Source of the DNA: Candidatus Coatesiibacteriota bacterium
Lineage (GTDB): Bacteria > RBG-13-66-14 > B26-G2 > JAUVZD01
DNA: 64,000 nucleotides
Direction: 5' to 3'
Assembly: GCA_030602715.1 (NCBI GenBank)
Contig: JAUVZD010000008.1
Span: forward strand, 1-64,000
The notes under the pieces were generated by a model. That model was given only the letters and a program-made list of their open reading frames with translations, did not search any database and was not told where the DNA came from. Every line of letters begins with the position of its first letter. The first letter of the stretch is position 1. Positions 58,032-63,885 of the stretch are shown here, one piece after another. The position numbers and the translations under genes are program-made.

Positions 58032-59357
58032 ATGGATAAAATCTACAAGGAGCTAACCGCAAAGATTGAAGCCAGAGACGCCCTTGTGGGTGTCATCGGC
58101 TTGGGCTATGTGGGTCTGCCCCTGGCTATGGAGTTCGGCAGAGCCGGGTTCACCGTCTTGGGCTTTGATACCAACCCCCAACTGGTTGAGCGTTTCAACG
58201 CCTCCGACTGTTACATCGGTCAGGTTGATGAGGGGTTGTTCACCCGGCTGATAGGTGACGGTCATATGTCGGCTACAGGCGACATGGCTCGTCTGGGGGA
58301 GCAGAATGTATTGTGTATATGTGTTCCCACGCCACTGGATAAGCATCGGGAGCCGGATATGACCTTTATCGTCAACACCTGCAAGACTTTGGCTGAGCAC
58401 CTGCGTTCCGGTCAGTTGGTGATTCTTGAATCCACCACCTACCCCGGAACCACCCGGGAGTTGATTAAGCCCCTGCTGGAGGGTAGCGGTCAATCAGTGG
58501 GCGAGGATTTCTTTCTTGCCTATTCCCCGGAACGGATTGACCCCGGCAACAAGGATGTGAAACTGCGCCAGATTCCCAAGGTAGTGGGGGGGATGACAGA
58601 ACGCTGCACTAATCTGGCAAGAGTCCTTTACTCTGCGGTCTTTGATGAGGTCTATGAGGTCTCCTCCCCTGAGGTGGCGGAGATGTCCAAGCTGTTGGAG
58701 AATATATTTCGTTCGGTCAATATCGCCCTGGTCAACGAGATGAAGATGCTCGCCGACCGAATGGGGTTGGACATATGGGAGATAATCCTGGCGGCGGCGA
58801 CCAAACCCTTCGGGTTCCAGCCCTTCTATCCCGGACCGGGGCTGGGAGGGCATTGCATACCCATAGACCCCTTCTATCTCACCTGGAAGGCGAGGCAGTA
58901 TGACTTTCCCACCCGCTTCATTGAGCTTGCCGGACAGATAAATACCAGTATGCCCGATTATGTGGTCAGCCGAACGATGGATGCGTTGAATGAGCGCCGT
59001 ATCTGCTTGAACGGCAGCCGTATTCTGGTGCTGGGGGTGGCTTATAAGCCGAATATTGACGATATGCGGGAGAGTCCGGCGGTGCGCATTATGGAGATAC
59101 TGCAGGAACATGGGGCGGTGGTGGATTATAACGACCCCTATATTCCCAGGATAGCCGACCAGCGTCAGACCGACTTGCGCAAGGAGTCCATTCGGCTCTC
59201 GGAGAAGACATTGGGGGAATACTCGGCGGTTATTATAGTAACCGACCACAGCGATTATGACTTCCAGTGGATAGTTGAGAATTCCCGACTGGTGATTGAT
59301 ACCCGCAATGCCACCCGGGAAGTGGAGGGTTACGAGGACAAGATAGTCCGTGCCTGA
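58032..59357 (+). CDS. Nucleotide-sugar (UDP-N-acetylglucosamine) 6-dehydrogenase, WbpA-like
   Basis: 441 residues. The NAD motif is GVIGLGYVGLPLAMEF; the catalytic Cys is in GPGLGGHCIPIDPFYL near residue 276; the C-terminal domain begins LVLGVAYKPNIDDMRESPA. The PFYL segment after the catalytic Cys and the overall length fit the UDP-GlcNAc/ManNAc dehydrogenases of the WbpA/WecC type rather than UDP-glucose dehydrogenase. It oxidises the sugar C6 to the uronic acid for surface glycans. First gene of the cluster. The specificity is by family resemblance. Confidence 0.93.
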   Translation: MDKIYKELTAKIEARDALVGVIGLGYVGLPLAMEFGRAGFTVLGFDTNPQLVERFNASDCYIGQVDEGLFTRLIGDGHMSATGDMARLGEQNVLCICVPTPLDKHREPDMTFIVNTCKTLAEHLRSGQLVILESTTYPGTTRELIKPLLEGSGQSVGEDFFLAYSPERIDPGNKDVKLRQIPKVVGGMTERCTNLARVLYSAVFDEVYEVSSPEVAEMSKLLENIFRSVNIALVNEMKMLADRMGLDIWEIILAAATKPFGFQPFYPGPGLGGHCIPIDPFYLTWKARQYDFPTRFIELAGQINTSMPDYVVSRTMDALNERRICLNGSRILVLGVAYKPNIDDMRESPAVRIMEILQEHGAVVDYNDPYIPRIADQRQTDLRKESIRLSEKTLGEYSAVIIVTDHSDYDFQWIVENSRLVIDTRNATREVEGYEDKIVRA

Positions 59358-59377
59358 TTTTTTGAGAGGGGAGACGG

Positions 59378-59800
59378 TTGAACAACGCCAAGGCTTTGTT
59401 TGAGCAGGGCTTCAATTGAGCGGAGTCCATACTCCTGGGAGTTGCCCGGGACATAGGAACGGAATCGCCACATTTTCCCCACCTTGCCACCCCTTTCGGC
59501 GGGGGTATGGGGCGCAATCAGATGATGTGCGGGGCTTTGACCGGTGGGGTTATGGTCATAGGACTGCTTTTTGGCAGAAATTCAGGCGGTGGGGAGAAGG
59601 ATAAAGCTTACAGCAGTGTGGACGCCCTCTTCAATGCCTTTAGGGAGAAATTCGGCAATCTGGGTTGTCGGGAGTTGATTGAGGTGGACCTGCGAAGCGA
59701 GGAGGGGCAAAGACTCTATCACGAACGCAATCTTCACTCGGAGAAGTGCTCCCAGTATGTCGCTTTTGTCGCCGACTGGTTGTTGAGCCTAAAGAGATGA
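59378..59800 (+). CDS. C_GCAxxG_C_C-type redox protein, probable selenoprotein (in-frame TGA at 59417)
   Basis: Reading from TTG 59378 (AGGGGAG four bases upstream), the frame runs to 59800 with one interruption, TGA at codon 14. Everything before and after is in phase, giving 140 residues, the family's normal length. Before it stands NAKALFEQGFN, after it AESILLGVARDIG; in family members this is ..LFxxGxNC-A.., so TGA replaces the first conserved Cys. The other three are kept: Cys51 in MMCGALTGG, Cys97 in LGCREL, Cys124 in EKCSQY. A hairpin at 59433-59451 fits a bacterial SECIS. Read as selenocysteine the protein is intact; a nonsense mutation at just this codon is much less likely. Such proteins are thought to be redox-active. 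It sits in the sugar operon, 20 bp after the dehydrogenase. Confidence 0.85.
59433..59451 (+). promoter_or_regulatory. Candidate bacterial SECIS hairpin
   Basis: TCCTGGG (59433-59439) pairs with CCCGGGA (59445-59451) through one G-U; loop AGTTG (59440-59444) with G at its second position. The loop begins 20 nt after the TGA, inside the 16-37 nt window of the published bSECIS model. Confidence 0.65.
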
Positions 59801-59810
59801 GCAGATACTT

Positions 59811-60776
59811 ATGGGTATGGCGAAGCAAAGAGTTATTTTAGTGACCGGGGGTGGTGGTTTCATCGGCAGATGGGTGGTCAGAAGACTTCTCGCCGAGGAA
59901 CGCAAGGTGGTGGTGGTGGACAACTTCTCCAACGCAAGCCCCAGCAACCTTGCTGGGTTTGAGGGGGATGAGAACCTTCTTGCGATACACAGGGAGGATA
60001 TCCGCTGGCGGGAGTTTATGACCGCTCTTTTTGATGAGTATAGGTTCTCCCTCTGTATCCACCTGGCCGCATCCATCAGTGTGCAGGACTCCATTGACCA
60101 CCCCTTGAGCACCTTTGATAACGACACCGTTGCAACCCTCCATCTCCTTGAGCTCTGCAGGCAGCACGAAACCCCCTTCGTCTTCACCTCCACCTGTCTG
60201 GTTTACGATACTTTTGACGGCACAGATGCCATTAGTGAGGAACATCCCGTAAAACCTCATTCACCTTACTCGGCGAGCAAGCTCTCCGCTGAGGCTTTAG
60301 CCCTCTCCTATCACCAGACCTACGACCTTCCGGTCACTGTCCTTCGCCCCTTCAATACCTACGGACCCTTCCAGCGTTCCACGGGAGAGGGGGGCGTGGT
60401 GGCGACCTTTCTTCATAGGGCGCTCGCCGGTGAATCGCTATTGGTCTATGGCGACGGCGAGCAGAGCCGGGACTTGCTCTATGTGGAGGACTGTGCAGAC
60501 TTTATCGTCTCCTCCGCCTTCCAGGAGAGGGCGGTGGGACGGATAATTAATGCAGCCAGCGGCAGAGAGACCAAGATCAACGAGCTGGCGGAGATGATAG
60601 CCGAGGGAAAGGTTGCCATAGAGCATGTGCCTCACATCCATCCCCGAAGCGAGGTGGGGCGTCTGAAGGGGAGCTATGTTCTTGCAGAGGAGCTTCTGGG
60701 ATGGAAGCCGGTGGTGGATTTGGAGGAAGGCATCGCCCGCACCCGGGATTATATCGCCGGGGAGCTGGAGGGGTGA
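59811..60776 (+). CDS. NAD-dependent epimerase/dehydratase (UDP-glucose 4-epimerase-like)
   Basis: 321 residues. The NAD motif is ILVTGGGGFIGRWVV. The active site shows TSTCLVYDTF (Ser/Thr), the Tyr-x3-Lys motif in SPYSASKLSAE, and RPFNTYGPFQR. SDR extended family. It changes the configuration or removes water from a nucleotide sugar. The ATG at 59811 or 59817 is possible. It lies 10 bp after the selenoprotein gene and one base overlaps the aminotransferase start. Confidence 0.94.
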   Translation: MGMAKQRVILVTGGGGFIGRWVVRRLLAEERKVVVVDNFSNASPSNLAGFEGDENLLAIHREDIRWREFMTALFDEYRFSLCIHLAASISVQDSIDHPLSTFDNDTVATLHLLELCRQHETPFVFTSTCLVYDTFDGTDAISEEHPVKPHSPYSASKLSAEALALSYHQTYDLPVTVLRPFNTYGPFQRSTGEGGVVATFLHRALAGESLLVYGDGEQSRDLLYVEDCADFIVSSAFQERAVGRIINAASGRETKINELAEMIAEGKVAIEHVPHIHPRSEVGRLKGSYVLAEELLGWKPVVDLEEGIARTRDYIAGELEG

Positions 60777-61981
60777 TGAGGTCCGCAAAGCTTCCAGCGA
60801 TTGAAGGCGGTGCGCCGATCAGGGAGGAATACCTCCCCTATGGAAAACATTGGATAAGCCCCGAGGAGGTGGAGTCGGTCTGCGAGGTGCTCCGGGGGGA
60901 TTGGCTGACCACGGGACCGGAGGTGGGTTTGTTGGAGGGGGAACTGGCGGATTATCTCGGTGCACGCTGGGTGCGGGCGGTAAACTCCGGCACCGCCGCC
61001 CTCATCTGCGCTGTGGGGGGGTTGGGGTTGGGTGAGGGGGATGAGGTCATCACCAGCCCGCTCTCCTTTGCCGCTTCAACCAACTGCGTCCTCTTTCACG
61101 GTGCAAAGCCGGTCTTTGCCGATATCTCCCTGGAGAACGGTTACTGCCTGGACCCGGAGTCGGTAGCTGGGGCTGTCACCAAAAGGACCCGGGCAATACT
61201 TGTGGTCCATTACGGCGGTTTTGTTGCCGATATGGTGGCTATCGGCGAAATAGCTGAGGAGAATGGACTTTTAGTAATAGAGGATACAGCTCATGCATTA
61301 GGGGCGGTTCAGGAGGGGCGGATGGCGGGAACCTTCGGTGATGCCGGCTGTCTATCCTTTCATCCGGTCAAACACATCGCCGCCGGTGAGGGGGGCGCGG
61401 TAGTGTCTTCCTCAGAGGAGCTTGCCCGCTTCACCGAGCTTTACCGCAACCAGGGGTTATCCACCACCACTTATCAGCGGCAGGTGGAGCGGAAGATTCA
61501 TCATTACGATGTGATTATGTTGGGCTATAACTTCCGCATCTCAGACATCCACGCACGGTTGGCTCGGGAACAGCTGAAGCGCCAGCCCGGGTTTGTCGCT
61601 CGCCGAAGGGAGCTTGCCCAAAGTTACGACGAAGCCTTTGCGGACCACGAGGGCATCATTCCTCCTCCGCCGGCAAGCGAGCACGGGGGCAGTTATCATC
61701 TCTATCCTGTGCGGATTATCCCGGAGAGATGGCGGATTGAGCGGGACCATCTACTCCAGGCTCTACGCACTGAGGGTATAGGTGCTACCCTGCATTATCC
61801 CCCCATCCACCTTCTGCAATATCATCGTCAGTTGTTGGGCTATAAGTCGGGTGATTTTCCCAATGCGGAAGCCGCTGCAGCGACGCTTCTAACTATACCC
61901 CTCTTTCCTAGGATGAGCGACGAGGACCGGGATGATGTCATCTCGGCGCTGGAGAAGCTGTGGGAATATTATAAGAGATGA
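60776..61981 (+). CDS. DegT/DnrJ/EryC1/StrS PLP-dependent sugar aminotransferase
   Basis: 401 residues. The N terminus LPYGKHWISPEEVESV, then NSGTAALICAVGGLGLGEGDEVITSPLSFAAS, DTAHALGA and the PLP Lys in FHPVKHIAAGEGG near residue 198. GYNFRISDIHARLAREQLKR and LHYPPIHLLQYH also match. It forms the amino group on a 4-keto (or 3-keto) nucleotide sugar, as in PseC/ArnB. Start ATG 60776 overlaps the upstream stop (TGATG). Last gene of the first transcript; a hairpin follows at 62058. Confidence 0.94.
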   Translation: MRSAKLPAIEGGAPIREEYLPYGKHWISPEEVESVCEVLRGDWLTTGPEVGLLEGELADYLGARWVRAVNSGTAALICAVGGLGLGEGDEVITSPLSFAASTNCVLFHGAKPVFADISLENGYCLDPESVAGAVTKRTRAILVVHYGGFVADMVAIGEIAEENGLLVIEDTAHALGAVQEGRMAGTFGDAGCLSFHPVKHIAAGEGGAVVSSSEELARFTELYRNQGLSTTTYQRQVERKIHHYDVIMLGYNFRISDIHARLAREQLKRQPGFVARRRELAQSYDEAFADHEGIIPPPPASEHGGSYHLYPVRIIPERWRIERDHLLQALRTEGIGATLHYPPIHLLQYHRQLLGYKSGDFPNAEAAAATLLTIPLFPRMSDEDRDDVISALEKLWEYYKR

Positions 61982-62057
61982 GATTGGCAGAAGGAAGATT
62001 GAAGGCTTGAATCGTCGCTGGATTGAGAAAGAGGTTATCGGTAAATCATCGTGCAAA

Positions 62058-62086
62058 CCCCCACCTGGATGGGGGCTTGAATTTTG
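62058..62086 (+). terminator. Probable terminator of the first sugar operon
   Basis: CCCCCA (62058-62063) and TGGGGG (62070-62075) with flanking A/T pairs, followed by a weak GAATTTT. It overlaps the -35 region of the next promoter. Confidence 0.5.
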
Positions 62087-62106
62087 CGGTGATTTTATTG
62101 TATAAT
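62077..62106 (+). promoter_or_regulatory. Sigma70-like promoter of the PseG-like gene
   Basis: TTGAAT (62077-62082), 18 bp, TATAAT (62101-62106). Confidence 0.65.
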
Positions 62107-62130
62107 ATAATTGTTGGCGAATTTATTATT

Positions 62131-62153
62131 GAGCTAAGTTCTGAGCTTAGCTC
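62131..62153 (+). repeat. Inverted repeat in the leader of the PseG-like gene
   Basis: GAGCTAAG (62131-62138) and CTTAGCTC (62146-62153), 7-base spacer, about 18 bp past the expected transcription start. It could be an operator or an RNA hairpin. Confidence 0.5.
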
Positions 62154-62177
62154 TGTTGTTTGGAGAGCGGATAGATT

Positions 62178-63218
62178 ATGACAATATTTTCCGGCTATAG
62201 GGTAGCATTTCGTGTGGATGGCGGGGAGGAGATTGGCTGGAGTTCCTTCAATCGTTGCTGTGCTCTGGCTTACGAGCTGGAGAACTATTTTGGGTGCAAG
62301 GTGGGTTTCTTCTCTTCAATTGAGGGTGAGCCGCCCTGGGGAGAACCACGATGGTCGCTGGTGACTCCACCTGAGGATATGAGTGTCTGGCAGGAGGGTC
62401 GGTGGCTTTCCTGGGAGACCGAGGTGGGAGGATACGACGGGATTGTCGTTGATGTCCGCAGGGATTTGGACTCGCTGTGTAAGCCTTTGATAAAGAGCGG
62501 ATTTGTGGTGGTGGTTATTGATGAGGATTACCGGGGCATAGTCCCCTCACATCTGGTGGTAAATGCTTCCATAGTTGAGGATCCTCAAGGCTATCATCCA
62601 TTCAATAGAGAACAGTTGTTCCTACTCGGTCATCGCTACATCATTTTGCGCCCCAAGTTCGGTGGGGAGAGGGACAGAATTGTCAAAGAAAGAGCGGAAC
62701 ATCTAGTGGTCTCGCCCGGTAGGGGTTATCCTCCTGCGGTCTGGGGGAGGGCTATACGCCAGGCGGTGGAGAAGGGCGGTATGAAGCGCATCTCTATATT
62801 TACTGAGCGGTCTCATTCCCTGGAGGATTTTGAGGTAGCAGAATTTTCATCGGATATTGATTTTCACTCCGGGCTGGAGGACCCCTCAAGGGTCATGGCT
62901 GGCGGTGATATCGCTCTGTGCGGGGGTGGGACTACTTTGTTTGAGTATATCTCCCTGGGGGTTCCCGCGGTGGCGATAACCGCCATACCTGGCGAGATTA
63001 AGGAAGCGGAGGCTTTAGCCTCTCAGGGAGCATGTGTTGCCCTTACCTATTCATTTGCGCCGGAGCGGGTGGGGATAGCGGTAAAGACGCTCGCCGACCG
63101 AATTGATGTTCGTCGGTTGATGAGTGCGTATGGTGCGGCGCTGATTGACGGGGGTGGGCGGGAGAGGGTGGCGCTGACTGTAGTAGAAATTTTGAGGAGG
63201 GAAAAGGGCTCTGGTTAG
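62178..63218 (+). CDS. PseG-like nucleotide-sugar hydrolase family protein lacking the catalytic His
   Basis: 346 residues. The layout follows PseG: FRVDGGEEIGWSSFNRCCALAYEL, YDGIVVDVRRD, VVVVIDEDYRGI, LGHRYIILRPKFG and GGDIALCGGGTTLFEYISLGVPAVAITAI. In PseG the first loop reads GxGHxxR with a catalytic His; here it is GWSSFNR, so the His is replaced by Ser. Enzymes of this family remove UDP from 2,4-diacetamido-trideoxy-altrose for pseudaminic acid. The missing His suggests altered or lost activity. No PseB, PseH or PseI is seen in the window. Own promoter. Confidence 0.72.
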   Translation: MTIFSGYRVAFRVDGGEEIGWSSFNRCCALAYELENYFGCKVGFFSSIEGEPPWGEPRWSLVTPPEDMSVWQEGRWLSWETEVGGYDGIVVDVRRDLDSLCKPLIKSGFVVVVIDEDYRGIVPSHLVVNASIVEDPQGYHPFNREQLFLLGHRYIILRPKFGGERDRIVKERAEHLVVSPGRGYPPAVWGRAIRQAVEKGGMKRISIFTERSHSLEDFEVAEFSSDIDFHSGLEDPSRVMAGGDIALCGGGTTLFEYISLGVPAVAITAIPGEIKEAEALASQGACVALTYSFAPERVGIAVKTLADRIDVRRLMSAYGAALIDGGGRERVALTVVEILRREKGSG

Positions 63219-63234
63219 GTAGAGGGAGGACAGT

Positions 63235-63885
63235 GTGGGAGAGAAGGAGAGATGGGATAGGCATCACTCTGACCGCATGTTGCGCTATCCCAGCGAGGAT
63301 GTGGTTCGTTTCATCGTCCGCAACTGGGAGACATCCCAATCCAGAAATGGATTGAGGGCGTTGGACTTGGGATGTGGTTCCGGTCGGCATACCGTGTATC
63401 TGGCAAAAGAGGGATTTCGGGCATATGGGACGGATATCTCCGCCATCGGTCTGGCTAATGCGGAGCAATTTCTTAGGCAGGAGGGGGCATCGGCGGAATT
63501 AAAATGGTCGGCTCTGGATAATATTCCCTATCAGGATGATTTTTTTGATCTGGTTTTAGCCTGGGAATCTATTCATTATGGAGATTATTCCTTCGGTCGT
63601 CGTGTGGGGGGGGAGATATTCCGTGTGCTCAAATCCGGGGGGAGGCTGTTCATATCCTTTCGCAGTCGGGATGACAACCATCCCGGGGAGGAGACCGCCG
63701 AAAGATTTACATTTGAGGGGAGAGAGGGTGAGGAGGGCTTGCTCTTTCATCTTTATGACCGCAAGGAAGCCCTATCGGTGCTTGAGGGCTTTGAGATAGT
63801 GTATGTGGATAGATTTTTTTGGACTAGATATAACCAAAGCCAATTGAACACATCTTTTATGATAGAAGCGAGAAAGGCTTTATAG
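63235..63885 (+). CDS. Class I SAM-dependent methyltransferase
   Basis: 216 residues. The SAM motif is RALDLGCGSGRHTVYLAKEGFRAYGTDIS (residues about 41-69), followed by LDNIPYQDDFFDLVLAW and LKSGGRLFISFRSRDD. Small-molecule methyltransferase, probably acting on a sugar or its precursor given its place 17 bp after the PseG-like gene. GTG start 63235 behind GGAGGA. The substrate is unknown. Confidence 0.9.
   Translation: MGEKERWDRHHSDRMLRYPSEDVVRFIVRNWETSQSRNGLRALDLGCGSGRHTVYLAKEGFRAYGTDISAIGLANAEQFLRQEGASAELKWSALDNIPYQDDFFDLVLAWESIHYGDYSFGRRVGGEIFRVLKSGGRLFISFRSRDDNHPGEETAERFTFEGREGEEGLLFHLYDRKEALSVLEGFEIVYVDRFFWTRYNQSQLNTSFMIEARKAL

Follow-up and report, generated by a model that had tools for sequence, protein, structure and literature searches.

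An in-frame TGA almost certainly read as selenocysteine in a C_GCAxxG_C_C family gene of a Coatesiibacteriota bacterium

The stretch of DNA analysed here (the window) comprises the first 64,000 nucleotides of contig JAUVZD010000008.1, from a genome assembly of a Candidatus Coatesiibacteriota bacterium (GCA_030602715.1). Near its end lies a gene of the C_GCAxxG_C_C family whose reading frame contains one in-frame TGA. An earlier note on this sequence had proposed that the gene is a probable selenoprotein, the TGA falling exactly on the first of the four cysteines (Cys) conserved in the family and specifying selenocysteine (Sec). The features of the locus, including a hairpin resembling a bacterial Sec insertion sequence (SECIS), are as follows.

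59367..59373, + strand: Shine-Dalgarno-like AGGGGAG, 4 nt 5' of the TTG start, read from the sequence
59378..59800, + strand: coding sequence of the predicted C_GCAxxG_C_C family selenoprotein, 140 aa, TTG start, TGA stop
59417..59419, + strand: in-frame TGA, predicted Sec14, aligning with the first conserved Cys
59426..59458, + strand: SECIS-like hairpin, a computed fold with stem 59433-59439 / 59445-59451 and loop AGUUG at 59440-59444
59528..59530, + strand: Cys51 of the CGAxxG motif, from translation and alignment
59666..59668, + strand: Cys97, from translation and alignment
59747..59749, + strand: Cys124, from translation and alignment

Translation of 59378-59800 on the forward strand gave 140 codons with a single internal TGA at codon 14 and a terminal TGA at 59798-59800, so that the frame is open as the earlier note had described it. 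From the nearest in-frame stop 5' of the gene (TGA 59363-59365) to the internal TGA, the TTG at 59378 is the sole ATG, GTG or TTG, and the LFxxGFN family motif is kept in the 13 codons 5' of this internal TGA. With the upstream gene ending at 59357 and the following one beginning at 59811, the read-through frame fills a gap within a run of genes on the same strand. The largest standard open reading frame (ORF) in this frame is 59507-59800 (97 aa), bearing out the expectation that a standard gene caller would truncate the gene. On either side of 59507 the codon bias is that of a gene (0.16 and 0.13 nats per codon); in the other forward frames it is negative.

The read-through protein scored 99.8 bits against PF09719 (cut-off 27) and 71 bits against TIGR01909 (cut-off 47.4), compared with 68.1 and 48.4 bits, respectively, for the standard ORF from 59507 alone. 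When the TGA is aligned as Sec, residue 14 falls in the column of the first Cys and all four conserved positions are present (Sec14, Cys51, Cys97 and Cys124), together with CGALTG, which fits the CGAxxG motif, and a length in agreement with the family; the protein may share the putative redox role of the family. With the members of TIGR01909 and PF09719, described as C-GCAxxG-C-C (seleno)protein, it has in common these positions, the motif, the length and scores above the curated cut-offs, but its sequence is new, belongs to a Coatesbacteria-like genome and has only 33-38% identity to relatives from its class. It also shares a domain with the HUGP/GUXX-star fusion selenoprotein NF045501 (62 bits, model positions 13-153), although it scores far under the cut-off of 325 for that model and lacks the fused second domain.

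Selenocysteine is not new to this family. C_GCAxxG_C_C is among the known prokaryotic selenoprotein families in one review (PMC9312934), and the NCBIfam name of the TIGR01909 family includes ‘(seleno)protein’. A second review (PMC13188914) also includes the family, giving forms 1 and 2 of it that contain Sec. The window gene is therefore an additional member of an already recognised selenoprotein family and not a new kind, and the novelty implied by the earlier note was overstated. A literature search linking Coatesbacteria with selenocysteine found no paper.

Evidence for the recoding of the TGA comes from the relatives. In an alignment of 13 of them, positions 14, 51, 97 and 124 are invariant Cys if TGA is counted as Cys/Sec, which confirms the placement of the TGA on the first of the four. 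All full-length homologues examined have either TGA or Cys in the codon-14 column, which places the TGA there beyond chance, and scattered stops or frameshifts are absent from the homologues. Among the other genomes of the same class with a match (n=5), four have TGA at the same codon (L023, L024, L026 and L028) and one has Cys (L025). A scan of named contigs returned 39 relatives with TGA confined to this column, the TGA-bearing ones lying on contigs labelled Coatesbacteria, Zixiibacteriota and Chloroflexi, among others. In a further group (L085-L090), which includes a two-domain version, TGA again occurs solely at the first Cys. The Sec loci L049 and L052 and the Cys locus L060 have neighbouring genes in common, indicating that these are orthologues differing by Sec versus Cys. 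L052 and L063, both members of the class, are recorded as Candidatus Coatesbacteria, which by itself makes this lineage the probable source of the window.

Some of these relatives have an unusual organisation. L089 and L090 (and the relative L088) carry a tandem-duplicated C_GCAxxG_C_C protein of ~300 aa, in which copy 1 has TGA at its first Cys and copy 2 has Cys at this position. In genome G019, a C_GCAxxG relative has its TGA in GTUSEAM (L037:500-502), and a second nearby copy starts right after a TGA at about L037 1440, such that there may be two adjoining Sec copies. One candidate, L051+3970, was removed from the list of Sec genes, its upstream TGA being a chance occurrence.

The genome (2.31 Mb, listed as 100% complete) encodes complete machinery for selenocysteine, as the earlier note's reading requires. 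All components were found above their cut-offs: selA (C3:335759-336904, 446.6 bits), tRNA-Sec (C3:336968-337061, 71.3 bits; called by ARAGORN as tRNA-SeC(tca), anticodon UCA) and selB (C3:338074-339957, 317.8 bits) are clustered on one strand of C3, and selD is located on the window's own contig (C11:106248-107171, 355.9 bits). The selD gene (L011:1390-2529) itself carries an in-frame TGA in GUAAK, a known Sec site, and is itself a selenoprotein. An HdrA2-type heterodisulfide reductase on C5 likewise has an in-frame TGA (C5:5946-5948; L114:106-108) at a known Sec site, the motif CSIU; this further selenoprotein of the genome has a fused FlpD-like domain. Formate dehydrogenase alpha, sought in this genome as another selenoprotein, was absent. 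Across the genomes checked, a Sec copy of the C_GCAxxG_C_C gene was always accompanied by selB above the cut-off, and those without such a selB (G010, G055 and G059) had Cys copies only. General reassignment of TGA to sense is ruled out, because TGA terminates 19 of the 50 window genes.

In bacteria, a SECIS is usually a hairpin just 3' of the UGA, with a G among the first two bases of its loop. The window hairpin, which the earlier note had not mentioned, fits this description: it has a 7-bp upper stem (UCCUGGG/CCCGGGA), is 20 nt from the UGA and has a G within the first two loop bases. As Rfam at gathering scores gave no match anywhere in the window, the hairpin was tested with ViennaRNA scripts. 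The z-score against dinucleotide shuffles is a weak measure for a short protein-coding region, so we used synonymous recoding and a comparison of Sec with Cys genes. Under synonymous recoding, the window hairpin had a z of -2.33; 14 Sec genes had a median of -1.42 and 43 Cys genes one of -0.35 (Mann-Whitney p 5.5e-5). A perfect 6-bp stem at the best register was present in 12 of 14 Sec genes and in 0 of 49 Cys genes (Fisher about 1e-10), both p-values somewhat overstating independence, as the Sec genes are interrelated and several are close relatives. The sequence of the stem varies by lineage yet stays paired, with GACCGC/GCGGUU in L049 and GCUCCU/AGGAGC in L085.

The sel genes, the column restricted to TGA or Cys and the SECIS-like hairpin all support the selenoprotein, and we consider that the internal TGA is almost certainly read as selenocysteine. 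With high confidence, we propose that its product is an all-helical redox protein of the C_GCAxxG_C_C family in which Sec, inserted at codon 14 under the direction of SelB and the hairpin, replaces the first of the four conserved Cys. SelB carrying Sec-tRNA(UCA) would bind the hairpin, whose first nucleotide lies 9 nt 3' of the U of the UGA, Sec would be put in at codon 14 and translation would run on to the terminal TGA. At the N-terminus of a helix, the selenol of Sec14 would be expected to be more reactive and to have a lower pKa than Cys, and one of the three remaining Cys would most likely be its partner in a redox couple. Sec incorporation is itself something we infer, and so is the redox chemistry of this protein. 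Several points weigh against this proposal, besides the relatedness of the Sec genes mentioned above. The folding energy of the hairpin was unremarkable against the dinucleotide shuffles (z -0.84), the neighbourhood of the window gene differs from that of its relatives, and the preference for a redox couple over a metal ligand draws on what is generally known of selenoproteins.

The predicted structure brings the metal ligand into consideration. It is all-helical (mean predicted local distance difference test score, pLDDT, 92.8), with residues 14 and 97 opening helices and residue 51 immediately preceding one. A structure comparison gave split-Soret cytochrome c (1h21) with a Z of 13.0 over 126 residues, a value that by itself may be unspecific for helical folds, and the next chain had 3.4. 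Foldseek against the PDB yielded no match at E<=0.001, and the profile match to 1h21 was weak (E 0.0011, with GFxC and CGALxGA kept) and became weaker with a wider profile. How far the next match falls behind, together with the common motifs, argues for a true relationship; the helical fold is shared over nearly the whole chain. The 1h21 structure bears the title ‘A novel iron centre’, and this centre was reportedly proposed to be an iron-sulfur one.

The same selenoprotein could thus use Sec14 and the three Cys to ligate an iron or iron-sulfur centre, a role reportedly put forward for the homologous domain of the cytochrome, rather than to form a selenol/thiol couple. The profile match to 1h21 and its retained motifs speak for such a centre; we regard this as possible but unlikely. 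Unlike the cytochrome, the window protein has no CxxCH haem motif in its 140 residues and no cytochrome region, and it has Sec where the first Cys stands. The protein may work either in selenol/thiol redox chemistry or through an iron centre, and the former is the more usual role of Sec. That Sec14 is specifically a selenolate ligand of such a centre, in a stand-alone split-Soret-like domain, seems to us improbable; if it were true, this would be a natural iron centre ligated by selenium, which could be compared directly with a Cys-ligated orthologue from related genomes.

Two explanations without selenocysteine fare far worse. A nonsense mutation in an ordinary Cys member of the family, leaving a pseudogene, would take just one substitution from TGC or TGT to TGA, but it would have to be the one lesion in 140 codons and to sit on a conserved Cys; it is strongly contradicted by the homologues, as other species share the TGA at the same codon and are otherwise undamaged, and by the hairpin and the complete sel machinery, so that we give it hardly any credence. 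It is just as implausible that there are two units, a 13-codon leader followed by a truncated protein from the ATG at 59507: standard callers would yield 59507-59800 and its product still exceeds the Pfam cut-off, but the stretch from the TGA to 59507 shows conserved residues in this same frame, coding bias is equally strong there, and the product would lack two helices as well as the first of the conserved positions.

We believe that a well-supported selenoprotein and its SECIS are hereby added to a little-studied bacterial lineage, and that a gene which standard callers would shorten is corrected. Furthermore, the Sec/Cys swap between the syntenic orthologues L049 and L060, in combination with the link to split-Soret cytochrome c, offers a direct means of probing the function of the C_GCAxxG_C_C family.

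The gene lies within a sugar-nucleotide cluster (window positions 58032-63885) with a nucleotide-sugar dehydrogenase, a dTDP-glucose dehydratase-like protein, a PseC-like aminotransferase, a PseG-like protein and a methyltransferase. The copies in L049 and L060 adjoin DUF3795 and a pyrimidine phosphorylase and that in L063 adjoins CorA; since the neighbours differ in this way, operon context was dropped as a guide to function.
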